The position numbers and the translations under genes were made by a program. Shown in pieces: positions 1 to 28,259 of a stretch of DNA of 28,259 nt. Position 1 is the stretch's first letter; every line of letters begins with the position of its first letter. This DNA comes from a virus: the IMG/VR virus record IMGVR_UViG_3300020463_000103, positions 1 to 28,259 of that record. One strand, given 5' to 3'. The notes beneath the pieces are model-generated. The model was given only the letters and a program-made list of their open reading frames with translations. It was not told the DNA's origin and did not search any database.

Positions 1-600
1 ATAGAAGTAAATAGAGGAGAAATCGTATTCTCACAGAGAAACTTTGCCAAAAGAAATAATATGACAAGACAAAGATTAAGAACTTTTTTAAAGAAATTGG
101 AAAAAACGAATATGATTTTAGTAAAATCTAACCCAGATATAACCCACGCAATTATTGTCGAATACAATTCCTACAATGAATTTAAACCCTACCAGCAAAA
201 ACCCGCATCTAACCCTATTATAAGAAAGAAAGAAAGTAAGAATAAAGAAATAAATAAAGACTTTGAGAGATTTTGGAAAACATATCCAAAGAAAGTAGGA
301 AAGAAAAAAGTACAGGATAAATTTGACGCTAATGACTTTCCAATTGATTTAATTATAAAGAATATAGAATTGCAAAAGAAGTCGGACCAATGGCAAAACC
401 AACAATACATACCTAATCCTGAAACTTATCTTAATCAAGAAAGGTGGACTGATGAAGTAGTATTAGAAACTATACCTGATGAGCCAATTTATATTTATGA
501 TTGTGCAGTTTGCAACAAACAAAAAACAAAATCGGAATACAGAGATTTATATATTTCGTGTTGCGATCAACAAATACAACCTAGAAAGGAATACAAATGA
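1..600 (+). CDS. Phage replication-initiator-like protein, 5' truncated
   Basis: The frame is open from base 1, so the gene begins upstream of the window; the first in-window ATG (61) lies inside the domain and is unlikely to be the start. The visible N-terminal part (GEIVFSQRNFAKRNN, then MTRQRLRTFLKKLE) has the look of the helix-turn-helix region of phage replication-initiator or DnaD/O-like proteins. A linker rich in Lys and Asn follows, then FERFWKTYPKKVGKKK and a segment ending YIPNPETYLNQERW, which recur in C-terminal parts of phage replisome organisers. The C-terminus carries CAVC and a CC pair, possibly binding zinc. The likely role is recognising the phage origin and recruiting replication proteins. 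It is first in a run of overlapping early genes: its stop overlaps the next ATG in ATGA. Assignment rests on pattern recognition, without a search. Confidence 0.7.
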   Translation: MEVNRGEIVFSQRNFAKRNNMTRQRLRTFLKKLEKTNMILVKSNPDITHAIIVEYNSYNEFKPYQQKPASNPIIRKKESKNKEINKDFERFWKTYPKKVGKKKVQDKFDANDFPIDLIIKNIELQKKSDQWQNQQYIPNPETYLNQERWTDEVVLETIPDEPIYIYDCAVCNKQKTKSEYRDLYISCCDQQIQPRKEYK

Positions 601-827
601 GTGCATATAGAGATTACATAGAGGAAAATATAGATCACTTAATTGAACAACAAATAACAGAACATCAAGAACAAGGCGAGGACAAAGGATTGTTAGTCTG
701 TGTAGTATGCAATACTAGTAGCAACCCCTCATCAGAGCCAATGGAGGACAACGATAAGTTTATTGCTATGTGTGGAGGGTGTAAAGATTGGGGAGAATTT
801 GTCTATGAAAGCGAATTGGAGGGTTAA
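597..827 (+). CDS. Small zinc-ribbon-like protein, unknown function
   Basis: This 76-residue protein starts in an ATGA overlap with the upstream gene, with AAAGGA as ribosome site. The N-terminal third is acidic and Glu/Gln-rich. The rest holds two knuckles, CVVC at about residues 35-38 and CGGC at about 59-62, in the spacing of a four-cysteine zinc ribbon, followed by the aromatic acidic tail WGEFVYESELEG. Such small phage zinc ribbons often bind nucleic acid or a host enzyme, but nothing here fixes the partner. Co-transcription with the replication-like gene suggests an early role. I do not recognise a named family. Confidence 0.65.
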   Translation: MSAYRDYIEENIDHLIEQQITEHQEQGEDKGLLVCVVCNTSSNPSSEPMEDNDKFIAMCGGCKDWGEFVYESELEG

Positions 828-1214
828 ATGAACGAACCAAAAAGATATGGAAAATATCTTAATGTAAAAAATCGTCCTATTAAAAAATGGAATCCGTATA
901 GGTGGGAAAACTTTCACGAGAGAATACCAAGAAAAAGTAAAGAAACTAATAAAGAAAAGTTTATCAGGTTATCAACTAATAGATTGAATAAATCTAAATT
1001 TGCTATTGATAAAACAATGAAATTAGTTTCTATTAAAAATGCTAAAAACTATAAATTTGAAAATCAAAATGAATTGATGATTGATATGTTAAATGACTTA
1101 AAAGAATATATTAACCAAAGAATAGAACTCATAAAAGAACAAGATGAACTTCAAAAACAATACAAAGATAGAAAAAAAGAACTTTTAAAACATTTAAAGG
1201 AGGAATACAAATGA
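828..1214 (+). CDS. Hypothetical early protein with C-terminal coiled coil
   Basis: The 128-residue product follows the preceding stop directly, with GGAGGG just upstream of the ATG. It is strongly basic. Residues 1-45 are rich in Lys, Arg, Pro and Trp. Residues about 46-105 contain a pattern (FIRLSTNRLNKSKFAI, NAKNYKF, then an amphipathic helix) that recalls a widespread family of phage hypothetical proteins built around a helix, an N/Y-rich turn and a second helix; this is from memory. The last 30 residues are a Lys/Glu heptad-like helix. The stop overlaps the next start in ATGA. Function unknown. Confidence 0.7.
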   Translation: MNEPKRYGKYLNVKNRPIKKWNPYRWENFHERIPRKSKETNKEKFIRLSTNRLNKSKFAIDKTMKLVSIKNAKNYKFENQNELMIDMLNDLKEYINQRIELIKEQDELQKQYKDRKKELLKHLKEEYK

Positions 1215-1468
1215 GTGATTTATTATTAAAGACGCAACAAGAGTTGCACGAGAATACTACAAAATGGAACGAAGTTATAGAAAAAATAAAACAAATAAAC
1301 TTTACTAAATACAAAACTAATCAAACGGTCGGATTTATTATTGACGATATAGTAAAAGGAGAATTTATTGATGAAGTAAAAGAAGAAAAGGAAAGCACTT
1401 GGGCAAAAGAAATAGATACTTCTGATATGAAAGAGTGGAATAAACCAAATGAAAGCGAAGTATTATGA
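1211..1468 (+). CDS. Hypothetical early protein, 85 aa
   Basis: It starts in an ATGA overlap, preceded by AAAGGAGGAATACAA, one of the strongest ribosome sites in the window. The N-terminal 35 residues look like an amphipathic helix; the rest is acidic, with a short motif TVGFIIDDIVKGEF. There are no cysteines, membrane segments or catalytic signatures. Position inside the early operon is the only functional clue. Its stop overlaps the next small gene, again in ATGA. I do not recognise the family. Confidence 0.6.
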   Translation: MSDLLLKTQQELHENTTKWNEVIEKIKQINFTKYKTNQTVGFIIDDIVKGEFIDEVKEEKESTWAKEIDTSDMKEWNKPNESEVL

Positions 1469-1626
1469 AAAATGTTATAGATACTCAATGGAGTATTAAA
1501 GTTGAGGGAAAACTTAATCGTAATAATATTATATTCCATACTAATAAATATCAAAAACTTTATCAAAAAATGGAAAAATATAATAACTTTATAAAAAAAC
1601 GAAAGGAGCAAGATGAAACCAAGTAG
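1465..1626 (+). CDS. Hypothetical small basic protein, 53 aa
   Basis: A 53-codon frame opens in the ATGA overlap with the upstream stop and ends at TAG 1624-1626, fourteen bases inside the next gene. It encodes MKNVIDTQWSIKVEGKL followed by an Asn/Lys/Tyr-rich basic tail. The exact stop-start overlap and the lack of any other explanation for 1469-1612 support it as a real gene. Its last codons supply the GGAG ribosome site of the following gene. No recognisable domain. Confidence 0.5.
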   Translation: MKNVIDTQWSIKVEGKLNRNNIIFHTNKYQKLYQKMEKYNNFIKKRKEQDETK

Positions 1627-1876
1627 TGCGAAAATAAATGAGATAGAATTACTTTCTATTGCAAGACCTAATTTAAGAATATATCCAATGGGAGAAAGAA
1701 TAAATCTTTTAACTAAACACTATAACTTAAAATTTAAATCAAAAAAATTAGAAAAACAGTTTATCAAAAATAAAATGAACGAATTGATAGCATTAAATAT
1801 GCCAAATAAAATAGGGTATTATTCTGAAAAACAAAATAGCATAATTGCTTGGGATAAACCAAAAACAACATCATAG
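1613..1876 (+). CDS. Hypothetical protein sharing the MKPSSAK start of its neighbour
   Basis: An 87-residue basic protein with an AAAGGAG ribosome site. Its first seven residues, MKPSSAK, and 20 of its first 21 bases are the same as those of the nuclease gene that begins at 1886, after which the two sequences diverge. The remainder (EIELLSIARPNLRIYP and a Lys-rich helix ending in IGYYSEKQNSIIAWDK) resembles a small helical domain with a C-terminal beta hairpin, a winged-helix-like outline, but this is only a guess. The gene may have acquired its start by local duplication. Function unknown. Confidence 0.6.
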   Translation: MKPSSAKINEIELLSIARPNLRIYPMGERINLLTKHYNLKFKSKKLEKQFIKNKMNELIALNMPNKIGYYSEKQNSIIAWDKPKTTS

Positions 1877-1885
1877 GAGAATTAG

Positions 1886-2245
1886 ATGAAACCAAGTAGT
1901 GCAAAAGCAAAAGGCAGAAACTTCCAGAATAAAGTAAGAGAAATGATAATGGAAAAGCTAGGCATTAATGAACACGATATAAAAACAGCAGTTATGGGAG
2001 AAAGTGGTATGGACATTATATTAGCCAAAGCAGGTAGAGATTCTTTCCCTTATGCAGTAGAATGCAAGAAAGTGGAACGAATCAATATTTGGCAATGTTA
2101 TGAACAAGCCTGTCAAAATTCGGAAGATCTTACACCCTTGCTTGTATTCTCTAAAAATCATTCAAAAGTAATGGTTTGCTTTGAATTTGAGGATTTGCTA
2201 GATTTAATAAATAATAGCAATGGATTTAAGAGATTAACAAAATGA
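1886..2245 (+). CDS. PD-(D/E)XK nuclease, Holliday-junction-resolvase-like
   Basis: The 119-residue protein shows the restriction-endonuclease-fold core: a basic N-terminal helix (KAKGRNFQNKVREMIMEK), GESGMDIIL with the metal-binding Asp, then YAVECKKV with the Glu-x-Lys pair, and WQCYEQA in the following helix. This arrangement is typical of small phage resolvases and related structure-specific nucleases that cut branched DNA during replication or before packaging. Length fits the group. The ribosome site is AGGAG before the ATG. The stop overlaps the following phosphoesterase gene by four bases, so the two are probably translated together. The exact substrate cannot be read from sequence. 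Confidence 0.75.
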   Translation: MKPSSAKAKGRNFQNKVREMIMEKLGINEHDIKTAVMGESGMDIILAKAGRDSFPYAVECKKVERINIWQCYEQACQNSEDLTPLLVFSKNHSKVMVCFEFEDLLDLINNSNGFKRLTK

Positions 2246-3474
2246 AACTTACAGAGGACGGCTTATACTTTATATCTTGCCCTAATTGTGGTAGCAAGAA
2301 TATGATTAAGAAAGGAAGTCAGAAAAATGCTGACGGATCTTATAAACAAAAGTATCTCTGTAATGACTGTAAAAGAAAAACTGTAAATCCAATCAGAAAT
2401 GATATAGAAGTCGTAAGAGAGAATCTAAAACTTGCAAAACAAAAACAATCAGCACAAGATACAAACAGAATAGAAAGGAAATCATTTAGAGAGTATGCAA
2501 GATACGAAAACGCAGTTCATAATTTATTATTTGATATTCAAGCATTATTGCAACAAAAGAATTTTTCAGACTTTAAATTTAAAAAAGTCAAACAAGGTAA
2601 TAGTGTTGGAGTCTTGCAAATATCTGATACACATTTTAACGAGCTTGTTTCCTTACCTCATAACAATTATGATTTCAAAATTGCTAGTAGGCGATTAAAA
2701 CATTATGTAAACAGAGCAAAAGAAATATTTAAAGTTTATGATATAGACAATGTATTAATCGCTATAACTGGCGATTTGATTAATTCTGACAGACGATTAG
2801 ATGAAATGCTTAATATGTCCACGAATAGAAGTAAAGCAGTATTTCTTGCAGTAGATTTATTACAACAAATTATATTTGATGTTGGACAAGATTATTCTGT
2901 ATCTGTTGCTTGTGTGACTGGAAACGAAAGTAGATTAAAACAAGATTGGGGTTGGTCAGACTTTATGGCGTCAGATAATTACGACTTTGTTATCTTTGAA
3001 ATACTAAGACATTACTTTAAAACAACAGATGTGCAGTTTGTTGTTGATGATCCTACGGAAGTAGTAGTTAATGTTGCAGGACAAAATTTATTACTACTAC
3101 ACGGAAACGGTAGTTTTACTACTCAATACGAAAAGAGTGTCAATCAAATCAAAGGTAGATACGCAGGTAGAGGTGTACAGATAGATTATATTATCTCTGG
3201 ACACATACACTCTGCAAGGGTAGGAGATATTGCAAGTAGAAGTAGTTCGCTTGTTGGAGCAAACGAATACAGCGAAAAAGGATTAAATCTATCAGGACGA
3301 GCAAGTCAAAATATTTATATTTTCCACGAGAATAAAAATATAGACGCTATGAAAATAGATTTACAATATGTTGGAGAGGAGTGTTATGACATTGATAACG
3401 AACTTGAAAGTTATAATGCTAAATCTTCCAACAAACTAAAACCAAAGAAAACCATATTTGAGGTAACGATATGA
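2242..3474 (+). CDS. Calcineurin-like metallophosphoesterase with N-terminal zinc ribbon
   Basis: This 410-residue protein joins two parts. Residues about 9-50 are a zinc ribbon with CPNC (C13, C16) and CNDC (C40, C43), resembling ribbons at the N-terminus of IS1-type transposase proteins. A helical linker follows. From about 120 the metallophosphoesterase motifs appear in order: ISDTHF (D129, H131), TGDLIN (D178), GNES (N228, replacing the usual GNH[DE]), LLHG (H287) and SGHIH (H321, H323). The set is complete enough for a two-metal active site. Likely roles are DNA end or nucleotide phosphodiester cleavage; the ribbon suggests nucleic-acid binding. No SbcC-like ATPase partner is in the window, so an SbcD-type complex is not supported. 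It is coupled to the nuclease upstream. Confidence 0.85.
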   Translation: MKLTEDGLYFISCPNCGSKNMIKKGSQKNADGSYKQKYLCNDCKRKTVNPIRNDIEVVRENLKLAKQKQSAQDTNRIERKSFREYARYENAVHNLLFDIQALLQQKNFSDFKFKKVKQGNSVGVLQISDTHFNELVSLPHNNYDFKIASRRLKHYVNRAKEIFKVYDIDNVLIAITGDLINSDRRLDEMLNMSTNRSKAVFLAVDLLQQIIFDVGQDYSVSVACVTGNESRLKQDWGWSDFMASDNYDFVIFEILRHYFKTTDVQFVVDDPTEVVVNVAGQNLLLLHGNGSFTTQYEKSVNQIKGRYAGRGVQIDYIISGHIHSARVGDIASRSSSLVGANEYSEKGLNLSGRASQNIYIFHENKNIDAMKIDLQYVGEECYDIDNELESYNAKSSNKLKPKKTIFEVTI

Positions 3475-3671
3475 TGTTAAAGCTAAACAACGAAGAAACG
3501 CAAGTTCTGAAATATATTTTTAAAAGTCGTTTTGTTAGGGAATTGCCACCTGCAATAAAAGATGTTGCAGTAGAAATTAAAAAGGCAATAGACAAACCAA
3601 CAATAGTGACGGAAAAAGAATATACTGGATTCAATCCAACTTGGAAACATTGCGAAAACTGTGACGATTAA
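3471..3671 (+). CDS. Hypothetical small protein with C-terminal CxxC
   Basis: The 66-residue product begins at an ATGATG in overlap with the upstream stop, with GAGGTAA eight bases before the first ATG. It has a helical Lys/Glu-rich body and ends in WKHCENCDD, a single CxxC knuckle with a nearby His at the very C-terminus. One knuckle alone cannot complete a classical four-ligand site, so zinc binding would need a dimer or the His. No family recognised. About 85 bases of weakly coding sequence separate it from the next reliable start. Confidence 0.6.
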   Translation: MMLKLNNEETQVLKYIFKSRFVRELPPAIKDVAVEIKKAIDKPTIVTEKEYTGFNPTWKHCENCDD

Positions 3672-3757
3672 TTAATATGATTATAGCAAAATTACATCAA
3701 TGCGTGTATAACGCAATAGTATCGCTTTGTCTTAAATGCAAAAACAAGGAAGGTAAA

Positions 3758-4051
3758 ATGTACTACAATACAACAAATGAAAATGGATTGAATTATAAAT
3801 CAAACTTAAAACAAGCAACAAATCAAGAACAGTTAACATTGGCAGTTTTTCAAACATATCCTAATGATAATTTGTCTGCTTATGATGTATGGAAGTTTTT
3901 AATTGATAATGAGTCAATTAACGAGCAAACACCACTAACATCTATACGCAGAGCAATTAGTGATTTAACAGACCACGAAAAACTTGTTAAAACAGATAAA
4001 AAAGTTTTAGGTGGAGCAGGAAGAAAAACATACACTTGGAGATTAAAATAA
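3758..4051 (+). CDS. Putative winged-helix DNA-binding protein
   Basis: I place the start at 3758 (MYYNTTNENG), which has AAGGAAGG at good spacing; an in-frame ATG at 3677 would add 27 residues but has no ribosome site. The 97-residue protein holds a compact winged-helix pattern from about residue 25: LTLAVFQTYPNDNLSAYDVW, then TSIRRAISDL as a probable recognition helix, and LVKTDKKV...GRKTYTWRL as the wing. This is the usual outline for phage proteins binding origin or promoter DNA. The stop TAA overlaps the next ATG in TAATG. A regulator or replication accessory protein are equally possible. Confidence 0.6.
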   Translation: MYYNTTNENGLNYKSNLKQATNQEQLTLAVFQTYPNDNLSAYDVWKFLIDNESINEQTPLTSIRRAISDLTDHEKLVKTDKKVLGGAGRKTYTWRLK

Positions 4052-4278
4052 TGGCTTACGAACACAAAGAGAATAAAGGATCTATCTTTAAAAACGAAAA
4101 GAAAGAGAAAGAAACACACCCAGATTATACTGGACAAGCAAATGTAGATGGCACAGTATATAATGTGTCTGCTTGGATTAATGAAAGCAAGGGTGGTAAA
4201 AAGTATTTTGGATTGGCTTTTTCTATTCCTAAATCAAAAGAGGATAAACCTTTAAGTAAAGACGAATTACCATTTTAA
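4051..4278 (+). CDS. SSB-like / phage OB-fold protein
   Basis: The start is ATG 4051 in TAATG; an earlier in-frame ATG at 4036 lies in the upstream gene and has no ribosome site. The 75-residue protein runs GSIFKNEKKEKETHPDYTG, then strands around VDGTVYNVSAWI and KKYFGLAFSI. This arrangement recurs in small phage and proteobacterial proteins annotated as single-strand-binding-like or DUF736-like. The C-terminus is acidic and ends in DELPF, close to the DDIPF-type tip by which bacterial SSB binds partner proteins. It probably works with the replication, nuclease and phosphoesterase genes upstream. It is the last gene of the plus-strand early block. Confidence 0.65.
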   Translation: MAYEHKENKGSIFKNEKKEKETHPDYTGQANVDGTVYNVSAWINESKGGKKYFGLAFSIPKSKEDKPLSKDELPF

Positions 4279-4283
4279 CAAAT

Positions 4284-4383
4284 TGGGGTAGTTTGGTATA
4301 AATATAAACAATAAAATATAGGAGTTTACCTCTTTTGTTAATTTCAGTTTATGCAAATACAGAGTTGGCTACTCACTACCCCA
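4284..4383. repeat. 9-bp inverted repeat bracketing an 82-nt intergenic segment
   Basis: TGGGGTAGT at 4284-4292 is the exact reverse complement of ACTACCCCA at 4375-4383. The pair lies in the 233-bp gap between two convergent operons, where no gene is seen. Read as RNA on the plus strand it gives a seven-pair GGGGTAG/CTACCCC helix plus a trailing A, an acceptor-stem-like arrangement, with a smaller GAGT/ACTC hairpin just inside the 3' arm. No T-arm consensus is present, so it is not a standard tRNA. It may be a structured noncoding RNA, a terminator component or chance. Confidence 0.35.
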
Positions 4384-4478
4384 TAAAATTATATAAATTC
4401 AAAATAACGCACTATTTACGGTATTCTCGCCAATGTGTACGTCTTTGTTTATGATATGCTATCGATAGATGAGTTATC

Positions 4479-4496
4479 GCCTTAGAGAGGCATTTT
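4479..4496 (+). terminator. Weak candidate terminator at convergent operon ends
   Basis: GCCT and AGGC (4479-4482 and 4488-4491) can form a short stem with a five-base loop, followed by ATTTT. Just upstream is a perfect 10-bp palindrome, CTATCGATAG (4459-4468). Four base pairs make a poor intrinsic terminator, but this is the only stem-plus-T stretch between the early operon and the convergent late operon. Confidence 0.25.
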
Positions 4497-4511
4497 AAGA
4501 AGAAAAATTTC

Positions 4512-5141
4512 TTATAATTGTTGTTCCAAATTGATCGCAACCCTGAAAACATTGTAAGCCGTTTCTGATACTTCTAATTTGTTATTTGTAAGGCGAACTG
4601 TAAAAAAAGTATCGCCATCTTCACTATATTGGAAAGTTTCCTTTTGTCCTTTTGCGTAATTATGCAAAGCCACTAATCTATTTTTATTCGCTTGGCTTAT
4701 ATTTTCATACACCAACTTTCTTTGTATTCTTGATGAATCGTGATTTGCAAAAGTAAAAGTTTTACCACCGATTGATTTCTTGGCAACTATGCCATCATAA
4801 GTTTGAGAAACATCAGTTCCTATGTTTGGATTTTGTGTTGGAGTATAAGTAATACTATCATCTTTAAAAACATCTGTTCCAGAGTTATGAGTTCTTATGG
4901 TCGTTCCATTAACTGCTCTGATAACAGTAAGATTATTTCCACTTATAGAAGTAATTGTCATTTCTTCAAGTTGGGACGAACTATTTGTTATTCTTATATT
5001 TTGTCCTACTTCAAAATGATCTCCGTCTGTAACAGGAACAGTTACAGTTGATGATGAATCGTTAAAACCTGCTGTAAGATTTGATCCACTATCTGTATCT
5101 GGTGTTGTATCTACTCTAAATCTAACTCGTGCTAATGCCAT
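4512..5141 (-). CDS. Minor tail / distal tail protein
   Basis: A 209-residue protein with AGAGGTAAATTA as ribosome site, last in the late operon. It is rich in Ser, Thr and Asn in the first half (TVTVPVTDGDHFEVGQNIRI and SISGNNLTVIRAVNGTT), reading as a beta sandwich. The C-terminal 90 residues run through a short helix (SQANKNRLVALHNYAKGQ) to strands ending in AYNVFRVAINLEQQL, as seen in small tail-tip proteins. Position directly after the tail hub supports a distal-tail or baseplate role. I cannot assign a precise named family. Confidence 0.6.
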   Translation of the reverse strand: MALARVRFRVDTTPDTDSGSNLTAGFNDSSSTVTVPVTDGDHFEVGQNIRITNSSSQLEEMTITSISGNNLTVIRAVNGTTIRTHNSGTDVFKDDSITYTPTQNPNIGTDVSQTYDGIVAKKSIGGKTFTFANHDSSRIQRKLVYENISQANKNRLVALHNYAKGQKETFQYSEDGDTFFTVRLTNNKLEVSETAYNVFRVAINLEQQL

Positions 5142-5159
5142 AATTTAATTTACCTCTTT

Positions 5160-7388
5160 TTATATTTCTCTCAAAACAACTTTTAAACTTCCTGGACTTC
5201 TTGTTAGCGATGTTACTATAAATTGCTTTCCATTGAAACTTTCTCCAAAAGGAGCTATAACTTGATTTGTATGGTCAAAAGCACACACATCTCCAACTTC
5301 CATTAAATAAAAATATGAACTTCCACCAGAGCTACCAGGATTTATTATTTCTGTATTAACAATTAATTTTGGATTTCCTTGAATAGCATTATAATAATTA
5401 GCAAAGCCATTATTTCTAGTACCACCCATATTCGCATCGCCTATTTTATTCCTTAATATAGTTAATTCAGTTGTTTCTACATTTTCTTTTGTAGCTATAT
5501 TATAATCACCTCGTGGATCGTTTGTAGTATCTTCGCAAGTTTGCGTCAAAAATGTTTTATCATTAATAGGATTAACCTCATATTTTATTTCTCTTTTAGT
5601 TATTAGAGATTCTATTGGCGTGATTGATATTTTCATACCTCTTATATCATCTTTGCTTATAGTGTGTAAACTAGTCATAGTATCATCAATATAAATATAC
5701 TGCGAAGATTGGTCTGCTGGACGAAAACGATGTATAAACGCACCTTCAAATTGAACTTGTTCTAGCAGTTTTTTTAATTCTATTTGTTTGTTTGTATAAT
5801 ATTTGCAAAACCAATTTGTTCTGTCTGTTTCTAAGTCTGATAAACTTTTTCCGTTATTTACAACAGGCGTACCAGTTACTCCTGCAAATCTATACAATAA
5901 ATCTCTGTGCATATTAAAAATATCTGTGATTACCGTACTTGTACTCCAAGATTTAGTTAATCCATCTGCTCCTGTATATAATTTTTTTACACTTGTAACT
6001 GCACTATTTTTTGATAATTTATCAGCAGTAGCATCAGATGCTGTTGGTTGAGTAATCTTAGTAGTTACTTCTAAAAACATATCTTTCACAGTTACAGTTG
6101 CAGTATTCGCTGTACCATTTCCTGCATCTTGTGGTTGATTATTGAAAGACACAAACAATCTTATTTGATCTGGCATTGTTTTTAAAGAAGTAGAAAAAGT
6201 AGTTGTATTTAATAAGTCGTGTATCGTAGTAGTAGAACTAGCATTAGCAGTTCTTGTAATATCTACAAAACTAGGGTTGTCTAAATCTGGATTATTCCAA
6301 TACGCCAACACTCTTAAAGTAACAGTTAAACTTCCATTAGTATCAGAAAAACTTGCTGTTTGATGTGTAAAGTGAAAATTTAATTCTGTTATTTCGTGGT
6401 CTTCTTTTGGAAAATCAGTCATTATATAAGTACCACCAGGAGAAATAGTAGCATCTGAACTAAAAGCAAAAGTAGCAACTGTTCCTGCACCAGTAGAATC
6501 GTAAGCATTTCCTGCGTTTGATATTGTAAGTCCAGTAACACTACTTGGATTAGTCACAGTTTGTGGACGAATTTTATAACTTCTTTCTAAATCTAAATCT
6601 GTAGACAATACATTTTTGTTTACATCGTCATCTGCTCCTTCATAGCTATCGTCAGAATCGTTTTGAACATCATCTAAGGGAACAAAAATAGGAAAACTTG
6701 TAGAATCATACATATCTTTTACTGGATAATGTAATCTACCGTCATCAACAGCTTTGTGAGCCAAGCAATTAAATACATCATTATTTAAACTATCTACTTG
6801 TACAGGGAATACTCTTGCAGCATCTACAAAGTCAGGACTAGAAACTGTTGATGTTTCTGGTGTTCCTGTACCATAAAATACAGGAAAAAAATTACCTATT
6901 TTAGACTGATGTTGTAGTATGCTAATATTTTCTATAGGATTGTAAACAGCTATTGTCATAGAAAGAGTATCAACTCCATTTATATTTACATCTTTTAATC
7001 TTCCTTTAAATATTTGTTCTGTATATCCACCAACTCTGGAATGCACTATAACATCGTGGTTTATATATCTTCTTGTGCCACCATATATTTCTGCTGCTAA
7101 TAAAGCGTTACTGTGATTTGCCAAAGCACCATTAACACAAGTCAAACTAATATTTCCTACTGTAGCAGTAGATTTTGACAAATCAATAGATTCTCTTATA
7201 GATGGAATATTAGTTATAAATGAATGATATATAGTTGAACTACTTCCAACTTCTGCAGTACCTAGTCTTATATATTCTGTTGCAGCAGATCCTGAACTAT
7301 AAGTATTATTTCGTAATTCAAAAATCCATTCTTCTTTGATACTTGCACCTAAAGCACCATTGTAATCACTATTGCCTGATAAAGCCAT
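5160..7388 (-). CDS. Tail hub / baseplate-like protein
   Basis: The 742-residue protein follows the tape measure gene with a TAATG overlap and no clear ribosome site, so translation is probably coupled. The N-terminal ~150 residues (EEWIFELRNNTYSS, then strands around IPSIRESIDLSKSTATVGNISL) look like the first domains of a siphovirus tail hub. A long Thr/Ser-rich beta region fills the centre. The C-terminal portion (ISITPIESLITKREIKYEVN, a Gly-rich stretch, then MEVGDVCAF and FIVTSLTRSPGSLKVVLREI) is typical of hub proteins, where the last domain closes the ring. Position after the tape measure is canonical. It lies at the tail tip; no enzymatic domain is apparent. Confidence 0.75.
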   Translation of the reverse strand: MALSGNSDYNGALGASIKEEWIFELRNNTYSSGSAATEYIRLGTAEVGSSSTIYHSFITNIPSIRESIDLSKSTATVGNISLTCVNGALANHSNALLAAEIYGGTRRYINHDVIVHSRVGGYTEQIFKGRLKDVNINGVDTLSMTIAVYNPIENISILQHQSKIGNFFPVFYGTGTPETSTVSSPDFVDAARVFPVQVDSLNNDVFNCLAHKAVDDGRLHYPVKDMYDSTSFPIFVPLDDVQNDSDDSYEGADDDVNKNVLSTDLDLERSYKIRPQTVTNPSSVTGLTISNAGNAYDSTGAGTVATFAFSSDATISPGGTYIMTDFPKEDHEITELNFHFTHQTASFSDTNGSLTVTLRVLAYWNNPDLDNPSFVDITRTANASSTTTIHDLLNTTTFSTSLKTMPDQIRLFVSFNNQPQDAGNGTANTATVTVKDMFLEVTTKITQPTASDATADKLSKNSAVTSVKKLYTGADGLTKSWSTSTVITDIFNMHRDLLYRFAGVTGTPVVNNGKSLSDLETDRTNWFCKYYTNKQIELKKLLEQVQFEGAFIHRFRPADQSSQYIYIDDTMTSLHTISKDDIRGMKISITPIESLITKREIKYEVNPINDKTFLTQTCEDTTNDPRGDYNIATKENVETTELTILRNKIGDANMGGTRNNGFANYYNAIQGNPKLIVNTEIINPGSSGGSSYFYLMEVGDVCAFDHTNQVIAPFGESFNGKQFIVTSLTRSPGSLKVVLREI

Positions 7389-10345: not shown

Positions 10346-10363
10346 TGACTTTCCTCGTTTTTA

Positions 10364-11383: not shown

Positions 11384-11384
11384 T

Positions 11385-11570: not shown

Positions 11571-11572
11571 AA

Positions 11573-15797: not shown

Positions 15798-15807
15798 TTT
15801 ATATCCT

Positions 15808-16080: not shown

Positions 16081-16082
16081 GA

Positions 16083-16328: not shown

Positions 16329-16329
16329 C

Positions 16330-21252: not shown

Positions 21253-21270
21253 ATTAATCTATCTCCTTTT

Positions 21271-21306
21271 AGTTTAGGGGAGTGTATTTCAACTCCCCAA
21301 TAAACT
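21271..21306 (-). promoter_or_regulatory. Strong bulged hairpin between capsid and fibre genes
   Basis: AGTTTA plus GGGGAGT (21271-21283) pair with ACTCCCC (21292-21298) and TAAACT (21301-21306), leaving an AA/TT two-base bulge and an eight-base loop: 13 pairs in all. On the minus-strand mRNA it starts one base after the capsid stop and ends just before the fibre ribosome site. No U tract follows, so it is not a classical terminator. It may protect the capsid mRNA end or reduce expression of the fibre and later genes. Confidence 0.7.
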
Positions 21307-21307
21307 A

Positions 21308-22174: not shown

Positions 22175-22198
22175 TTTATTTACTCTCCTTAAAAATGA

Positions 22199-22750
22199 TT
22201 ATTTTTTTTTAAGGTAATGACTTATCAAGTCTTTATGCGATCCTCTACGACTTTTTTGATCAGTTAGTTCGTTAAAAGGATTTCCTTTAAACTTACTAAC
22301 AGACACTTGATTTTCAACTTGTCCTACATTAACACCAGACTTTGAATCAAATTCTGATGCTATGTCACGCAAAAGAGATAAATCATCTACCTTCTTAAAT
22401 TTTTCTCTTTTCGTTTCAGGAATTTTACTTAGAAGAGAATCTTTTTCTTGATTGACATAATTAGAAAAAGATTCATTAATCTCGTTAAACTTAGATTGTA
22501 AATCTTTATTCTTATTTTGCTCCTCAACTAACAGAGCTTTGTATTCGCCTTGCTCTTCTAAAGTCTTTTTACGCTGTTCTTCCTGTGCAGTTGCTACTTC
22601 TTGAACTTGTGATTTTAATTCATTTCGTTCTTTGACTAGCTCCTGAAAACGATAATATGGAACAGCTTCTTGTGTCTTTTTTTCGTCTTGACTGACTTGA
22701 GGATTTTTTACAGCTTCCTCTACGGCTGTATTCTGTGTTTCTTCAGACAT
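22199..22750 (-). CDS. Capsid scaffolding protein
   Basis: The 183-residue protein begins MSEETQNTAVEEAVKNPQVS, with AAGGAG at seven-base spacing. It is Glu/Gln/Lys-rich and mostly helical, with a coiled coil across about residues 35-105 (RFQELVKERNELKSQVQEVA). The C-terminus is basic (QKSRRGSHKDLISHYLKKK), as in scaffolds such as that of P22, where a basic helix-turn-helix contacts the coat protein. Position directly before the capsid gene is canonical. It should direct procapsid assembly and leave before DNA fills the head. It is the first gene of the late minus-strand operon. Confidence 0.88.
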   Translation of the reverse strand: MSEETQNTAVEEAVKNPQVSQDEKKTQEAVPYYRFQELVKERNELKSQVQEVATAQEEQRKKTLEEQGEYKALLVEEQNKNKDLQSKFNEINESFSNYVNQEKDSLLSKIPETKREKFKKVDDLSLLRDIASEFDSKSGVNVGQVENQVSVSKFKGNPFNELTDQKSRRGSHKDLISHYLKKK

Positions 22751-22805
22751 TTTAACTCCTTGAGTGGATTATTATATGGTATTAAGTTAAATATAGATTA
22801 AATTA
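22751..22805. promoter_or_regulatory. Divergent promoter region between scaffold and terminase
   Basis: Fifty-five AT-rich bases separate opposite-strand start codons. On the minus strand a perfect TATAAT (22776-22771) sits about 15 bases before the scaffold ribosome site; no good -35 box is apparent. On the plus strand TTGAGT (22760-22765) and TAAGTT (22783-22788) are a weak pair with 17-base spacing. Both late operons must start here or be read through from elsewhere. Confidence 0.5.
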
Positions 22806-24137
22806 ATGACAATCAGAATGTCAAAGAAAATAAAAGAGTTTGAGTTCAAACAAAAATGGTTTGATTATATGCAATATCAACCACACGAAGGGCAAAAAAA
22901 ATTGCATTTTCCTGACAAATCTGACGCATCTTATTTCGTAAACATTTGTGGTAGAAGGTATGGTAAAACTACTGCAGCATTTCGTGAAGCTGAATTTTAC
23001 GCAGCACAACCTAATAAAAAAATATGGCTAGTTGGATTATCTTATAAAAAATCACGATTAATGTTTAGAGAAATCTGGAAAGATATGGTAGCAGGTAAAG
23101 CAAACGATATTGATAGAGCATCTGAAAAAGAACAGTATATAAAATTTAAATGGGGAACAACAGTAGAAGGTATGTCTTGTGAAAACCCAGACTCGCTAGT
23201 CGGAGAAGGGGTAGATTTATTAATTATAGATGAGGCAGCAAAAATGCCAAGAAGAATATGGGATATGTATTTATCTCCAACTCTTGTAGATAGAAAAGGT
23301 AAAGCCATCTTTATTACTACCCCAGAAGGATTTAATTGGATATATGATTTGTTTTTATTAGGTCAAACAGATCCTCAATGGTATTCACAACAATCTCCAA
23401 GTTGGGAAAATCAATATGCGTTTCCAGAAGGAAAGAAAGATTCTTTTATCCAGGAAAGAAAAAGAAATATGTCTAAAGAACTATTCGACCAAGAGTTTGC
23501 AGCAAAGTTTACATCAATGGAAGGAAGAGTATATCCATTTGACAGAGAAATAGATATGGGAGAAGTTCCATATCAAGAAAATTTACCAACCTATTGCTCA
23601 ATGGACTTTGGGTTCAGAATGCCATCAGTATTATGGTTTCAAACTTATAAGCAAGATGGTAATTGGCATATTAATATTATTGATGAAATAATACACGAAA
23701 GAAATATACCAACAGATAAATTAGCAGAAATGATAAAGAAAAAGAATTATCCAGTAATTACTTACTATGGTGACCCTGCTGGTAGCTTTGTGCAAGGACA
23801 ATCTGGATTAGGAGATATTCACATCTTACGCAGACACGGAATTTATGTAGAATACAGAATGGACAAACTATCTCGTGATATACAATCTGGTGTGAGTTAT
23901 TGTCGTGGATTTTTTGAAAATGCAGATGGTTTAAGAAGAATAAAGATAGATAAAAAATGTGTAGGTATCGCAGAAGATTTTGAAGGATATAGATTTCCAG
24001 AAGCAGTAGAAGGCAAAGCTATCTCTAATAACCCAATCAAAGATGGATACTATGAACACGGCTGCGATGCTTTCAGATATTTTATCTTGAATAGATTTCC
24101 AATTAGAAGTAATTTCGTTGGAAGAATACCAAGATAA
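22806..24137 (+). CDS. terL: Terminase large subunit
   Basis: The 443-residue protein has the expected two domains. The ATPase part has a Walker-A-type GRRYGKTT (49-56), Walker B LLIIDEAA (138-145) with D142 and E143, and coupling motif FITTPEG (169-175). The nuclease part has Asp residues in SMDFGF (D267), YYGDPAG (D323) and CDAFRYF (D421). It packages DNA into procapsids and cuts it. The start has no clear ribosome site; ATG 22818 is an alternative. It is encoded on the plus strand, opposite to the small terminase and to capsid genes. Length is typical. Confidence 0.95.
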   Translation: MTIRMSKKIKEFEFKQKWFDYMQYQPHEGQKKLHFPDKSDASYFVNICGRRYGKTTAAFREAEFYAAQPNKKIWLVGLSYKKSRLMFREIWKDMVAGKANDIDRASEKEQYIKFKWGTTVEGMSCENPDSLVGEGVDLLIIDEAAKMPRRIWDMYLSPTLVDRKGKAIFITTPEGFNWIYDLFLLGQTDPQWYSQQSPSWENQYAFPEGKKDSFIQERKRNMSKELFDQEFAAKFTSMEGRVYPFDREIDMGEVPYQENLPTYCSMDFGFRMPSVLWFQTYKQDGNWHINIIDEIIHERNIPTDKLAEMIKKKNYPVITYYGDPAGSFVQGQSGLGDIHILRRHGIYVEYRMDKLSRDIQSGVSYCRGFFENADGLRRIKIDKKCVGIAEDFEGYRFPEAVEGKAISNNPIKDGYYEHGCDAFRYFILNRFPIRSNFVGRIPR

Positions 24138-24149
24138 AAGGAACGCTAA

Positions 24150-25454
24150 ATGGTTTTAACCCCACAAGAGATTATAAAAGATTCATTAACTAATTTTAAA
24201 GAAGAACAAGCGAAAGCTAGAAGAGAAGAAGTAAGAAAGTTTTTAGATTATTATTCTGGCTCTTTAACCGAGCAATACATAGAGGGTTATTTTAAATCTG
24301 ACGCCTTCCAGGAAATCCCACATTACAATACAAACATTGTAAAGAAGTTTGTAAATCGTATGTCAAAAATTTATACTATTGGTGCTAAGAGAAATGTCAA
24401 TGACAGGTATGTAGATTTGTCATCAGTTAAGAATGCTCGTATGAAACAAATGGAACGAATGACTCGTTTGCTTGGTACTTGTGCAACTTATGTTATGTAT
24501 GATGAAATGGAAGAACGATTTGAATATCGTCCTATTTATTATTTTGAGCCATACTTTGGTGACAATCCATACAGACCTGAAGCTATTGTATATCCAATGA
24601 TGCACGGACACGCAGATTTATCTGATACAGATGATTTAATGTATGCTTATTGGGACGGGGATAGACATATTAAGTTTGATGACAATGGAAACATTATAGA
24701 AGAAATAGAACACAATATTGGTATATTGCCTTTTGTTTTTTCACACAGAGAAGAACAATTAGATTCTTTCTTTGTGGAAGGTGCATCAGACTTGGTATCT
24801 GCTAATGAACATATCAATATTACTATGACCGAAATGCAGTTAGGATTAAGATTTCAAATGTTTGGACAGCCAGTAGTAACTGGACTTATATCAGATAATG
24901 CAAACGTAAGAGCAGGATCAGATGAAATCTTAACATTGCCAGAAGGAAGTAATTACGACATTGTATCTCCAGAGGGAAATGTAAGAGATGTTATTGAAAA
25001 CATTAAGTGGCAAATAGAATTGGTAGCATTGAATAATCACTTGTTCGTTACTTTTGCACAATCAGGTGGTGAAGTACCAAGTGGTATTTCTTTAATGATT
25101 AAAGACTTAGAACGCCACGAAGATTTTATTGATGACAAAGAATTATATCGTCAATATGAAAAAGATTTCTATAAAGTAGAATATGCTTTATCAGAAATAA
25201 ACAGCTTAGGTTTACCAAAACCATCTGAGTTTAAAGTAGACTTTTCTGAAGTTGAATATCCTATGACTACTCAAGATAAGATTATGTTAAATGAATACAA
25301 GCTGAAACATAACTTAACTACACAAGCAGAATTGTTAGCAGATGAAAATAGAGATTTAACTATTGAAGATGCTATACAAGTAATTGCAGATAATAAATCA
25401 ATGAATGAAGTAGAGATAGTAGAAGATGATAATCAAGATACACAACAAAGTTAA
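24150..25454 (+). CDS. Portal protein
   Basis: The 434-residue protein follows the terminase after 12 bases with AAAGGAACGCTAA as ribosome site. It has the layout of SPP1-gp6-like portals: a basic N-terminal helix (EEQAKARREEVRKFLDYYSG), NIVKKFVNRMSKIYTIGAKR, a beta region with YFEPYFGDNPYRPEAIVYPM, then SANEHINITMTEMQLGLRFQ, QSGGEVPSGISLMIKDLERH in the tunnel/helix region, and an acidic tail (EVEIVEDDNQDTQQS). It forms the dodecameric ring for DNA entry and the docking point for terminase and connector. It overlaps the next gene by 29 bases. Confidence 0.9.
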   Translation: MVLTPQEIIKDSLTNFKEEQAKARREEVRKFLDYYSGSLTEQYIEGYFKSDAFQEIPHYNTNIVKKFVNRMSKIYTIGAKRNVNDRYVDLSSVKNARMKQMERMTRLLGTCATYVMYDEMEERFEYRPIYYFEPYFGDNPYRPEAIVYPMMHGHADLSDTDDLMYAYWDGDRHIKFDDNGNIIEEIEHNIGILPFVFSHREEQLDSFFVEGASDLVSANEHINITMTEMQLGLRFQMFGQPVVTGLISDNANVRAGSDEILTLPEGSNYDIVSPEGNVRDVIENIKWQIELVALNNHLFVTFAQSGGEVPSGISLMIKDLERHEDFIDDKELYRQYEKDFYKVEYALSEINSLGLPKPSEFKVDFSEVEYPMTTQDKIMLNEYKLKHNLTTQAELLADENRDLTIEDAIQVIADNKSMNEVEIVEDDNQDTQQS

Positions 25455-25932
25455 TTTTAACTTTCACAAAGTTCAATCTAAAGTAATAAAACAATTAGTT
25501 AATAAAAGACTTAAACGAATTGCTGACTTTGCAAAAAAGAAAGTAAGAGATACTTTTAGAAAAGAAAAAAATATTGATGGTAGCAATTTCCAAACATTAA
25601 GCGAAAAATATGTAGAAATAACCGAACGTCCTAATCGTCCTATTATGGATAGAACTGGAAACTTGAAAAAAAGTTTGCATTCAAGAAGCTCTATAAAAAC
25701 AAACACTAATGAAATGACAGTTTCCTATGGTACAAATGAAGAACAATACGAACCACATTTGAAAGAGGGTGGTTATAAAGGAAAATTTGGTAGAGTTCCA
25801 CAAAGAAAATTCTTTTATACCTCTGATGAAGAAGCGTTTGATATAGTAAAAGAAAAGATTGCAACTGAAGTAGATGAGTTTTTGGACGATTTTATAAGGA
25901 ATCTTTCAACAAGTATGCGTAAACTACATTGA
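25426..25932 (+). CDS. HK97-gp10-like / phage virion morphogenesis protein
   Basis: The 168-residue protein starts at ATG 25426 inside the portal gene; no later in-frame ATG precedes the conserved region. It contains a basic helix (RLKRIADFAKKKVRDTF), DRTGNLKKSL, VSYGTNEEQYEPHLKEGGYK, and VPQRKFFYTSDEE, the ordered signature of phage morphogenesis proteins related to Mu gpG and HK97 gp10 that act in head completion or head-tail joining. The final helix (ATEVDEFLDDFIRNLSTSM) is typical as well. Here it sits with the portal rather than among the other neck genes. Its stop overlaps the next ATG. Confidence 0.8.
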   Translation: MIIKIHNKVNFNFHKVQSKVIKQLVNKRLKRIADFAKKKVRDTFRKEKNIDGSNFQTLSEKYVEITERPNRPIMDRTGNLKKSLHSRSSIKTNTNEMTVSYGTNEEQYEPHLKEGGYKGKFGRVPQRKFFYTSDEEAFDIVKEKIATEVDEFLDDFIRNLSTSMRKLH

Positions 25933-26153
25933 TGGAAGATTTAATAAAAGAAATATTTAAAATGGTTTCACAGATAAAAAGAATATCTGAAGCTAATAAT
26001 GATCTACTCGGATTTGTATGTTCTAAGGTTGCTCCAACCAAAAAAATTACCATCAAAGAAATAGATTTATTAGATGTAGCTTATATCTCAATGGAAATGT
26101 CAGAAATATTTGAAGAGTATGATGTTATGCCTGAGGACTATGGGATTGCTTAG
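25932..26153 (+). CDS. Hypothetical small helical protein, 73 aa
   Basis: I place the start at ATG 25932, overlapping the upstream TGA by one base. The 73-residue protein is predominantly helical and acidic at its end (MEDLIKEIFKMVSQIKRI, EIDLLDVAYISMEMSEIFEE). No family is recognised. Its last 29 bases overlap the end of the minus-strand small terminase gene, so two transcripts converge within coding sequence. It is last in the plus-strand packaging block, and an assembly role is only suggested by position. Confidence 0.6.
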   Translation: MEDLIKEIFKMVSQIKRISEANNDLLGFVCSKVAPTKKITIKEIDLLDVAYISMEMSEIFEEYDVMPEDYGIA

Positions 26154-26793
26154 TTTCTAATTCTGCTAACTTTTCTAACCACTTTCTTTTTTCACTCGCA
26201 GTAGGTCGTCTTTGTGGCAATGGCTCTAGTCCAACTTTCTTTGCTCTTTGCAATAATGCGTATCTAGCAGCTCTATCCTCTCTTAATTTTTGCCTATATG
26301 GTTTTTTACCCTTCTTTATTCTTTCTACTGCTTTCTTTTCTTTTATCTGACGCTTTTGAGGTTTGTCGTTTTCTGGATTTCTTTCTGGAAGTGTTTCTAG
26401 TATTTCTGTAACCTCTTCGCTTTCTGCGTCTATAATATCCTCTGCGTCTATTTGTTCTGCTTTTAAGAACTTCTCAAATGGACTATCTACAGTTACATTG
26501 ATGTTTTTAACTAGTTTTCCTGAATGTTCTAATACCAGACGCCCTGCCTGGACATTGCCTTCAATAGCTTCTCGAATCATACTATTTAATACCATAGGTA
26601 ACTTTGCATTAAAAGAAACCATATACTTCTTATAATACATATCAACAAATCTATCATCAGCAAACCAAGATTGTATAGTTCTATGACTAACATTTATTTG
26701 CTCGGCTATTTGTTTTTTATTTAAATCAGGATTATGTATCATTAAATCAATAGCAGCCATTTGATTGGCTTTTTTTAGTTCGATATTACTCAT
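26125..26793 (-). CDS. terS: Putative terminase small subunit
   Basis: The 222-residue protein begins in an ATGA overlap. It has an N-terminal helix-turn-helix (NKKQIAEQINVSHRTIQSWF, about residues 25-45), then YYKKYMVSFNAKLPMVLNSM and AIEGNVQAGRLVLEHSGKLV, a pattern shared by phage small terminase subunits that read the pac/cos site. The C-terminal half is highly charged (KAVERIKKGKKPYRQKLRED) and may contact the large subunit or DNA. It lies 2 kb from the large subunit and on the opposite strand. A DNA-binding regulator is the alternative, but the helix-turn-helix plus AGRLVLEHSG pair favours terminase. Confidence 0.72.
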   Translation of the reverse strand: MSNIELKKANQMAAIDLMIHNPDLNKKQIAEQINVSHRTIQSWFADDRFVDMYYKKYMVSFNAKLPMVLNSMIREAIEGNVQAGRLVLEHSGKLVKNINVTVDSPFEKFLKAEQIDAEDIIDAESEEVTEILETLPERNPENDKPQKRQIKEKKAVERIKKGKKPYRQKLREDRAARYALLQRAKKVGLEPLPQRRPTASEKRKWLEKLAELETKQSHSPQA

Positions 26794-26933
26794 TTACCTT
26801 GCCCTCTATATTTTTTCTTATAATACTTCTTTGAACCTTTTGTGCCGTATTTAGTATTAGAGCTTCTACCTTGTCGAGTTTTTTTTGCACCATTTGACTT
26901 CCTAGTGCGTTCCTGAAATAAAGATTTTCTCAT
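26790..26933 (-). CDS. Lys/Arg-rich small protein, 47 aa
   Basis: The start at 26933 forms an ATGA overlap with the stop of the upstream gene; the frame extends further to 26987 but that part lies inside the membrane protein gene. The 47-residue product (MRKSLFQERTRKSNGAKKTR, then SSNTKYGTKGSKKYYKKKYR, then GQGK) is extremely basic and low in hydrophobic residues, so probably disordered until bound. Nucleic-acid binding is plausible. Its stop overlaps the small terminase start in ATGA, implying coupled translation. Confidence 0.55.
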   Translation of the reverse strand: MRKSLFQERTRKSNGAKKTRQGRSSNTKYGTKGSKKYYKKKYRGQGK

Positions 26934-27145
26934 TTCTTGTAGACTTTTTCTGCTCCTGCGATTCCGAATGAACCTAGTGTAACCCAAACAAATGAGTTAT
27001 AGATGTAGTCGTTTACCATTAATTCTATTCCAATAATACCCATTGCTAAATCTACGACGCCAAATACACACATCAACGCAAAGGATAGAAAACCTATAAT
27101 ATTCTTTTCATTGTATTCGTTTTTATCTTTAAATAATTCCCACAT
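26930..27145 (-). CDS. Small two-helix membrane protein, holin-like
   Basis: The 71-residue protein has AAGGAGAAGTA as ribosome site and starts in TAATG. After a charged N-terminus (MWELFKDKNEYNEKN) it has two hydrophobic stretches, about 16-42 (IIGFLSFALMCVFGVVDLAM) and 49-65 (IYNSFVWVTLGSFGIAG), and a basic tail (AEKVYKK). Size and topology fit a class-II-like holin or a pinholin/antiholin, but a different membrane role is equally possible. A separate holin is found beside the endolysin at 14307. Confidence 0.55.
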   Translation of the reverse strand: MWELFKDKNEYNEKNIIGFLSFALMCVFGVVDLAMGIIGIELMVNDYIYNSFVWVTLGSFGIAGAEKVYKK

Positions 27146-27279
27146 TACTTCTCCTTTTTCTTAGGTCTAAATATTTTCTCCCAACGCTTTTCGTATTCTT
27201 TTTTAGAAATACCTATAGGTCTAGGCACATCGCCTTTACCTGCACCGTTAGGTTTTTTATAAATGCTCTTTTCTTTCAT
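27145..27279 (-). CDS. Basic microprotein with GAGKGDVPRP motif, 44 aa
   Basis: A 44-codon frame closes by TAATG with the membrane protein gene and opens in ATGA with the upstream gene. It reads MKEKSIYKKPNGAGKGDVPR, then PIGISKKEYEKRWEKIFRPK and KKKEK. A Gly-Lys-Gly-Asp-x-Pro-Arg-Pro core followed by a Tyr/Trp helix is a pattern I recall from small proteins in many phages. The function of those is unknown to me. Real coding is supported by the paired overlaps. Confidence 0.6.
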   Translation of the reverse strand: MKEKSIYKKPNGAGKGDVPRPIGISKKEYEKRWEKIFRPKKKEK

Positions 27280-27407
27280 TTACTATATTTTAAAAACTTG
27301 CTTTTCTTTATAGGGTTGCGTTTCAGTTTGGCTTTAATGCTCATCTTACGCATTCCATAAAGACGTTTAGGTATAAAGTTTCTAGCAGATGATACGGTAA
27401 CATTCAT
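27276..27407 (-). CDS. Basic microprotein, 43 aa
   Basis: A 43-codon frame: MNVTVSSARNFIPKRLYGMR, then KMSIKAKLKRNPIKKSKFLK and YSK. It is bounded on both sides by ATGA overlaps. It has no acidic residues at all and could wrap around nucleic acid. No strong ribosome site is visible, so translation is probably by coupling to the gene before it. I do not recognise the family. Confidence 0.5.
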   Translation of the reverse strand: MNVTVSSARNFIPKRLYGMRKMSIKAKLKRNPIKKSKFLKYSK

Positions 27408-27583
27408 TTTCCAACCTTACGCATTGCTGCAGTATGAGCTTGTTTAAAGGTTTTACCTTTTCTCATTGCTGCTGCCATAGATCGTAAATGTCCTTTGGTG
27501 TGATGAACCTTATGTCTGCTCATCTGTTTTTTTTGTGTTTTGTTTAATCCTTTTAGACTAACACCTTTTAAATTTTTAGCCAT
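27404..27583 (-). CDS. Basic His-rich microprotein, 59 aa
   Basis: A 59-codon frame (MAKNLKGVSLKGLNKTQKKQ, then MSRHKVHHTKGHLRSMAAAM, then RKGKTFKQAHTAAMRKVGK). It starts in TAATG overlap with the 24-residue gene and ends in ATGA. The His cluster HKVHHTKGH and the helix MAAAMRKGKTFKQAHTAAM recall small phage proteins with a helix-loop-helix outline that I have seen in marine phages; metal binding is possible. No function is known to me. Confidence 0.6.
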   Translation of the reverse strand: MAKNLKGVSLKGLNKTQKKQMSRHKVHHTKGHLRSMAAAMRKGKTFKQAHTAAMRKVGK

Positions 27584-27657
27584 TACTTCTTCTTACCTTT
27601 CTTCATCTTTTTCTTTTTCTTTTTCTTTTTTCTCATTGTACCTGTGTGGTATGGCAT
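27583..27657 (-). CDS. Polylysine microprotein, 24 aa
   Basis: A 24-codon frame with a clear ribosome site, AAAGGAGATAGTT, before the ATG. It reads MPYHTGTMRKKKKKKKK, then MKKGKKK. The ribosome site, the TAATG overlap with the next gene and the surrounding operon argue for real translation in spite of its size. It resembles the polylysine start of the 33-residue gene at 15095. Binding to DNA, RNA or acidic proteins is the obvious guess. Confidence 0.55.
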   Translation of the reverse strand: MPYHTGTMRKKKKKKKKMKKGKKK

Positions 27658-27659
27658 AA

Positions 27660-27815
27660 CTATCTCCTTTTTTTTAATTTGTCTTTTGGACAATATCTTA
27701 AATAATCTACTCTTGTTTCTACCTTTTTACCTGTGGCTAAACCACAATAAGTAAGCTCTTTTTCTTTCGCTGCAAACGAACAATGAGCTTTTATTAGTGA
27801 ACAGTAATCAAACAT
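27660..27815 (-). CDS. Cysteine-rich small protein, 51 aa
   Basis: A 51-codon frame starting in TAATG overlap with the upstream gene and ending TAG at 27660. It reads MFDYCSLIKAHCSFAAKEKE, then LTYCGLATGKKVETRVDYLR, then YCPKDKLKKRR. Cysteines at 5, 12, 24 and 44, with His 11, could bind a metal, though spacing is irregular. It looks like a short treble-clef or disrupted zinc-finger domain. No family is recognised. Its last codons supply the AGGAG ribosome site of the microprotein gene that follows. Confidence 0.55.
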   Translation of the reverse strand: MFDYCSLIKAHCSFAAKEKELTYCGLATGKKVETRVDYLRYCPKDKLKKRR

Positions 27816-28018
27816 TAATCTATATCCAATTCTTTGTATAATTTACGATCTGGCATAGAACCTGCACCATTTATAACTAATAATGGCTTAGAAGGTATCC
27901 TTTTTACAAGAAATTTTTCCTTACAACATACACATCTTTCAAGTGGATCATCTGTCATTTTCTGCTCCACCTCAAAAATATTATCAGTTTCAAGACATAT
28001 ATAATCGTATTTAGGCAT
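27815..28018 (-). CDS. FmdB-like zinc ribbon protein, degenerate first knuckle
   Basis: The 67-residue protein MPKYDYICLETDNIFEVEQK, followed by MTDDPLERCVCC and FLVKRIPSKPLLVINGAGS, matches the FmdB-type zinc ribbon layout (KYDYxC near the start, then CxxC, then a Lys/Arg-x-x-S strand). The first CxxC is degenerate: only Cys8 remains, replaced by CLET. Three cysteines in CVCC and Cys8 could still bind metal. The start lacks a clear ribosome site. It is the first gene of the small-protein/terS operon; a nucleic-acid-binding regulator is plausible but unproven. Confidence 0.65.
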   Translation of the reverse strand: MPKYDYICLETDNIFEVEQKMTDDPLERCVCCKEKFLVKRIPSKPLLVINGAGSMPDRKLYKELDID

Positions 28019-28090
28019 ACAAGCAATTTAGGGGTAAAAAACAATAAAAAACCACCAAAATTTAGGATTGGTTGTCTAGTTATTTTTGTA

Positions 28091-28107
28091 TTAAAGTAAT
28101 ACTTTAA
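28091..28107. promoter_or_regulatory. Candidate operator, 17-bp perfect inverted repeat
   Basis: TTAAAGTA-A-TACTTTAA has two 8-bp arms around one central base, the shape of a dimeric repressor site. It lies 73 bp before the terS operon start and 127 bp before the plus-strand gene. The early winged-helix protein or an unseen regulator could bind it. Confidence 0.5.
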
Positions 28108-28134
28108 CCTAAATACCTATCTCTACTATATATC

Positions 28135-28146
28135 GTCGTTTACGAC
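28135..28146 (+). terminator. Short hairpin with T tract in the control region
   Basis: GTCGT-TT-ACGAC is a short inverted repeat followed on the plus strand by AATTTTTTATTTT. With a four-base stem (GTCG/CGAC) and TTTA loop it could act as a weak terminator or as an operator half-site. It is too short to be convincing. Confidence 0.25.
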
Positions 28147-28234
28147 AATTTTTTATTTTCTTGATTTTAATATATACTGTATTAAATTATTACTATTTAG
28201 TTAGTCGTTAACTATGGTTTTGCAAGGAATACTA

Positions 28235-28259
28235 ATGGACTACCATGTACTAACAAAAT
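28235..28259 (+). CDS. Start of a plus-strand gene leaving the window
   Basis: ATG at 28235 is preceded by AAGGA at six-base spacing. Eight codons are visible (MDYHVLTK) before the window ends. The divergent control region just upstream and polarity matching the early operon suggest the first gene of an early transcript, but the protein cannot be identified from eight residues. Confidence 0.45.

Follow-up and report, generated by a model that had tools for sequence, protein, structure and literature searches.

Near absence of CATG in an uncultured phage and its relatives, a probable case of restriction avoidance

The window analyzed here, positions 1-28,259 of the IMG/VR record IMGVR_UViG_3300020463_000103, is a stretch of 28,259 bases from an uncultured phage in which the tetramer CATG is almost absent. 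Its open reading frames (ORFs) encode a terminase, a major head protein, a tail tape measure protein, a tail fibre and a GH108 endolysin, in addition to a PDDEXK/RusA-like nuclease, an exonuclease and a thioredoxin-like protein, and no integrase was seen among them. Judging from the tape-measure and head genes, the phage is probably siphovirus-like. Isolated and reference phages show only remote similarity to the window, no relative of the terminase was found in the searched contig collection of GTDB species genomes, and the protein at the portal position (24150-25454) has no relative in 398 Pseudomonadota genomes. As no tRNA genes were found either, in the window or in the 52 loci scanned, the host was not assigned. 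The label "marine" is our assumption, since the metagenome sets of the relatives were taken as oceanic from contig names and not from any computed result.

CATG and other words in the window

An exact count gives three CATG sites, while 85.1 are expected from base composition and 80.9 from N(CAT)N(ATG)/N(AT) (z = -10.4). The resulting observed/expected ratio is 0.037, below the elimination threshold of 0.1. This agrees with the near absence reported by an earlier note on this DNA, which had also placed the sites correctly at 16635 and 28244 and only misplaced the remaining one (17202, not 17212). CATC, GATG and AATG are over-represented. The sites and the other features are given in Table 1.

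Table 1. Features of the window, with the methyltransferase slot and the distribution of CATG
Feature	Position	Strand	Remarks
CATG-free stretch, 16.6 kb	1..16634		about 48 sites expected pro rata
PDDEXK nuclease / RusA-like protein	1886..2245	+	PF24608, weak Mrr_cat
Exonuclease (metallophosphoesterase)	2242..3474	+	marker for collecting relatives
Conserved small gene, cluster c1	3677..4051	+	opens the variable methyltransferase slot
Conserved 80-aa ORF, cluster c2	4036..4278	+	methyltransferase genes adjoin c2 in relatives
Methyltransferase slot, empty in the window	4279..4511	+	relatives: Dam-like, C5 or N6/N4 methyltransferases
Small tail gene, cluster c0	4512..5141	-	closes the slot
1640-aa tail-fibre-like gene	16330..21252	-	LDGVT(S/A)TAAELN repeats; contains 2 of the 3 CATG sites
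CATG site 1	16635..16638		within the long tail-fibre gene; near relative L110 has the same site
CATG site 2	17202..17205		within the tail-fibre gene
CATG-free stretch, 11 kb	17206..28243		exact count
Major head protein	21308..22174	-	marker for sister genera
Terminase large subunit	22806..24137	+	marker for family tree
CATG site 3	28244..28247		12 bases from the contig end, outside listed genes

Synonymous codons were shuffled 500 times with proteins and codon usage kept fixed. Coding regions contain 2 CATG and the shuffles 40.7 (standard deviation 4.8, minimum 26 in 500), so that neither amino-acid nor codon usage accounts for the loss. Histidine codons before G are 34 CAC to 2 CAT, against 31 CAC to 49 CAT elsewhere (Fisher p = 4e-9), which bears out the preference for CAC that had been noticed by eye, and none of the 179 in-frame ATG codons is preceded by C. 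Noncoding sequence has 1 CATG for 4.7 expected, in a small sample of 2.7 kb.

Other words are also depleted (counts are given from here on as observed/expected). ACGT is at 7/56 (z = -10.5), GCGC at 2/16 and CCGC at 1/14, and GGCC (0/8.5), CGCG (0/7) and CCGG (0/3) are absent. TCGA (16/48), GTAC (43/93), CTAG (46/89) and GATC (38 occurrences) all lie at 0.33-0.52 of expectation. The earlier note had used GATC as a contrast to CATG, but at 0.39 of expectation it is itself depleted. The comparison among palindromes does place CATG lowest by ratio for words with a large expectation, although it is not the only word affected. On the other hand, TGCA (0.82), AGCT (0.83), TATA, TTAA and ATAT together range from 0.82 to 1.04, thus the loss is not uniform over all palindromes. 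GC-containing palindromes are avoided as a background, and some words are erased outright on top of it.

Erased words in the family and in sister phages

The family includes 80 terminase relatives with 88-99% identity, and word statistics were made on the 43 contigs spanning the methyltransferase slot. Most of the 80 have no CATG (e.g. G012, 0/82 in 34 kb), and many are CATG-free over 10-34 kb. CATG is the tetramer most often erased, in 88% of the 43 contigs (pooled ratio 0.06), followed by CCGC (70%), GCGC (64%), ACGT (56%), GATC and GACC (23% each) and CTAG (14%); most other words, TTAA and TGCA among them, are erased in none.

Some relatives tolerate CATG (G009, 36/88; G018, 28/87; also L020, L027, L161 and L149). 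G009, with a terminase 96% identical to that of the window, keeps CATG but lacks ACGT (0/62) and GACC (0/68). Other near relatives have their own erased words, such as CATG and ACGT in G012 (ACGT 0/77), GATC in G027 (0/59) and CTAG in G019 (0/48). GATC, CTAG, ACGT and GACC are therefore absent in some close relatives and normal in others, and the erased targets change between near relatives while composition stays constant. On the terminase tree, CATG tolerance requires four changes, at least two of them forced by well-supported branches. Three phages from metagenome 3300030451 have CATG at 36/88, 0/42 and 61/68 (L019, L144 and L238), and a library artefact was rejected since phages from this same metagenome keep the word.

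The alignments between G009 and the window indicate how sites were lost. None of 18 alignable CATG sites of G009 is CATG in the window, which has CACG at 6 of them, CATA at 5, AATG at 2, CATC at 1 and other words at 4 (complements pooled); 14 of the 18 are one substitution away. Control words in the same alignments were retained at 44% (TGCA), 38% (AGCT), 30% (GATC), 28% (GTAC) and 18% (CTAG). The genes of the window are a mosaic, with 26-100% identity to differing relatives, and since it is nevertheless CATG-poor throughout, the gene pool supplying it is CATG-poor.

Asymmetric words are also lost in some phages. GACC/GGTC is found 0-1 times for 49-68 expected in several family members (G009, G005, G022, G004 and G024), and CCAG/CTGG is at 0/113 and 2/119 in two sisters (G430 and G433). 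The 51-kb record IMGVR_UViG_3300030102_002442 (G013; L126, L160) contains two exonuclease copies, and its halves have opposite profiles (GATC 27/52 with ACGT 0/31; GATC 0/65 with ACGT 40/72). It is probably two phage genomes fused in assembly, each with its own word profile. Isolated Pelagibacter phages keep CATG (HTVC010P, 60/110; HTVC011P, 93/122). HTVC011P (L206), near-normal for CATG, has GATC at 0/80 and TCGA at 0/23, and its record annotates an anti-restriction protein.

More distant phages sharing the exonuclease with the window (50-58% identity), here called sisters, show the same pattern with other words erased. In G428 (L336-L337) there is no CpG in 29,324 bases where 621 are expected, arginine is encoded only by AGA/AGG in the ORFs checked, and CA/TG is raised to about 1.36. 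CpG is likewise at 0/527 in L375, 0/485 in L381, 0/266 in L377, 0/169 in L374 and 1/404 in G429 (L338), and at 0.4-0.65 of expectation in some relatives of these CpG-free sisters. In partly depleted phages (L276-L298 and other sisters by major capsid protein or exonuclease) the surviving CpG contexts vary by lineage. One such group keeps mostly TCG/CGA-flanked CpG (ACGA, CCGA, GCGA, TCGA) and loses ACGC, ACGG, ACGT, CCGC, CCGG and GCGC. Given this variation, several 4-base erasures may have added up to the CpG-free genomes, or one CG-specific agent may have produced them.

The methyltransferase slot

Between the cluster c1 and c0 genes, the relatives carry Dam-like (PF05869), C5 (PF00145) and N6/N4 (PF01555) methyltransferases in varied combinations. 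In the window the slot is empty, without a Dam-cluster ORF, and no match to the DNA methyltransferase families PF02086, PF01555 and PF00145 was found in the window, which would therefore depend on having no sites. None of the 17 Dam carriers has GATC erased, against 10 of the 26 contigs without Dam (Fisher p = 0.003, shared descent ignored). The Dam of this cassette is about 45% identical to annotated methylases of the 936 phages.

For CATG, the association between N6/N4 genes and tolerance (nominal p = 7e-4) pools two different enzymes and has exceptions in L155 and L164. The methyltransferase of G009 (L085:1435-2283) is only a lead as the CATG enzyme. Its carriers among other phages (L165-L168) keep CATG, but most unrelated phages keep the word anyway, the carriers differ in the variable central part, the expected place of target recognition, and L155 and L164 are counter-examples. 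A genome scan with this protein matched only Pseudomonas loci. The slot of L158, whose exonuclease is 99% identical, contains a 340-aa ORF (L158:1900-2922) with no Pfam or NCBIfam match, in which the stretch WDMCAGWGGRLFGF looks methyltransferase-like by eye.

Probable restriction avoidance and its alternatives

We consider that CATG was erased by selection from Type II restriction in the host, with a probability of roughly 80%. Restriction is inferred as the agent because selection acts on synonymous positions, the targets switch between lineages, sites were lost one by one by substitution, and Dam never occurs together with GATC erasure. These observations uphold the avoidance part of the earlier note's proposal, that an NlaIII-type enzyme had been escaped; the part concerning the enzyme fares less well, since none specific for CATG was found and the avoidance is not limited to this word. 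The NlaIII, FatI, CviAII and HpyI restriction-modification (R-M) systems recognize CATG. The match of the window with them is in the word and nothing else, as no such enzyme was found here, and an NlaIII-type specificity, exactly CATG, is suggested from the word only. Since several sites are erased in one genome, several R-M specificities are implied.

The cells repeatedly infected by these phages would carry an enzyme cutting unmodified CATG, and genomes with fewer sites would survive entry more often. Point mutations, mainly from CATG to CACG or CATA and their complements, would have cleared the sites genome-wide, leaving the exchangeable gene pool of the family CATG-poor. The same process with other specificities could have removed ACGT, GCGC, CCGC and GGCC from the window, and GATC, CTAG or GACC from sister lineages, while some relatives may have taken an alternative route through a methyltransferase gene in the one exchangeable slot.

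Several points weigh against restriction avoidance. The searches gave no host, and neither an endonuclease nor a methylase specific for CATG was found. A search for ICEA (PF05315), which we take to cover NlaIII, gave none in 398 Pseudomonadota genomes, but also none in 14 controls, so it is uninformative. CATG tolerance is not explained by any single methyltransferase: the tolerant G018 shows only a Dam-like gene, and L155 (2/27) and L164 (2/19) carry relatives of the G009 enzyme yet are CATG-poor. The exonuclease tree has about 5 changes for GATC erasure and about 7 for Dam, so the independent sample is small and descent weakens the p-value of their exclusion. Moreover, several words are low at once, and a general bias against GC-containing palindromes adds a background of about 0.4-0.6.

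That background could be thought sufficient, if selection or mutation acted against GC-containing palindromes or dinucleotide steps with no CATG-specific agent, and the low GATC, GTAC, CTAG and TCGA are indeed seen broadly across the family. We find this unlikely, as CATG (0.04) is far under the background while TGCA and AGCT, of the same composition, are near 0.8, and near relatives that do not differ in composition reach 0.3-0.5 for CATG but are devoid of other words, a switch that composition bias cannot explain. It is very unlikely that a sequence-specific nuclease of the phage degrades host DNA at CATG and the phage avoids its own target. The PDDEXK protein and the metallophosphoesterase exonuclease would be the candidates, but both genes are about 90-92% identical in the tolerant G009 and G018, and the words avoided vary among relatives that share these nuclease genes. 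Neither these nor any other gene of the window cleanly divides avoiders from tolerant relatives; nuclease genes common to both count against a phage-encoded cutter, and self-avoidance was rejected.

If CATG were, or contained, the protospacer adjacent motif (PAM) of a host CRISPR (clustered regularly interspaced short palindromic repeats) system, its depletion would also be expected, and the loss of motifs from phages whose hosts carry CRISPR has been studied (PMC4246573). A strict 4-base palindrome lost genome-wide, with CATC, GATG and AATG in excess, is more readily explained by a palindromic cutter than by a PAM, which is short and asymmetric, and we consider the CRISPR explanation highly unlikely. 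The survival of only three sites could suggest that CATG is reserved for rare functional positions in regulation or packaging, for example methylation-controlled switches, an alternative also raised by the earlier note. It found no support and is extremely unlikely: the window lacks the three methyltransferase families mentioned above, CATG-tolerant relatives have the same genes, two of the remaining sites fall within the tail-fibre gene, which changes fast, and the third lies where the contig ends, and with so many relatives at zero there is no conserved site to keep.

Restriction avoidance also agrees with what is known of other phages. In a survey of phage genomes, elimination (CB < 0.1) affected about 7% of orthodox Type II sites, a far higher share than for other R-M types, and non-temperate phages showed it more often (Rusinov et al. 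2018, PMC6286503). As in that survey, a palindromic Type II site is nearly eliminated in the window and several sites are affected in a phage with no integrase seen. Unlike there, where the R-M systems of the hosts are known, here the specificity is deduced from the phages of the family, and target switching is documented between relatives 93-97% identical in terminase. The lactococcal 936 phages, also siphophages of about 30 kb with acquired orphan methyltransferase genes, have a short Dam-type enzyme proven to block DpnII, a GATC cutter (Murphy et al. 2014, PMC4190342). In contrast to them, the window has no methyltransferase, the absence of Dam in its family accompanies occasional total GATC erasure, and enzymes protecting CATG are only candidates. 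We found no earlier account of CATG avoidance or of CpG-free phages in marine viruses in a limited literature search, which does not imply that none exists. The depletion in the window is genuine and strong, extends over the family, and belongs to an already known kind of phenomenon.

A broader reading, which we hold to be doubtful, is that these phages are barcodes of host restriction: the erased words would list the specificities met, the single exchangeable slot would set the words tolerated, and in the sisters the word would shrink to CG, either as a 2-base target or as the full set of CG-containing words. To our knowledge, no restriction endonuclease with a 2-base target is known, and restriction biology as now understood would have serious difficulty in accounting for the CpG-free relatives. 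Neither the host nor its defence is known for most ocean phages. Where near-identical phages lack different words, the differences yield testable predictions on the restriction specificity to be sought in the host, on the site that each phage methyltransferase protects, and on the places at which contigs are chimeric.

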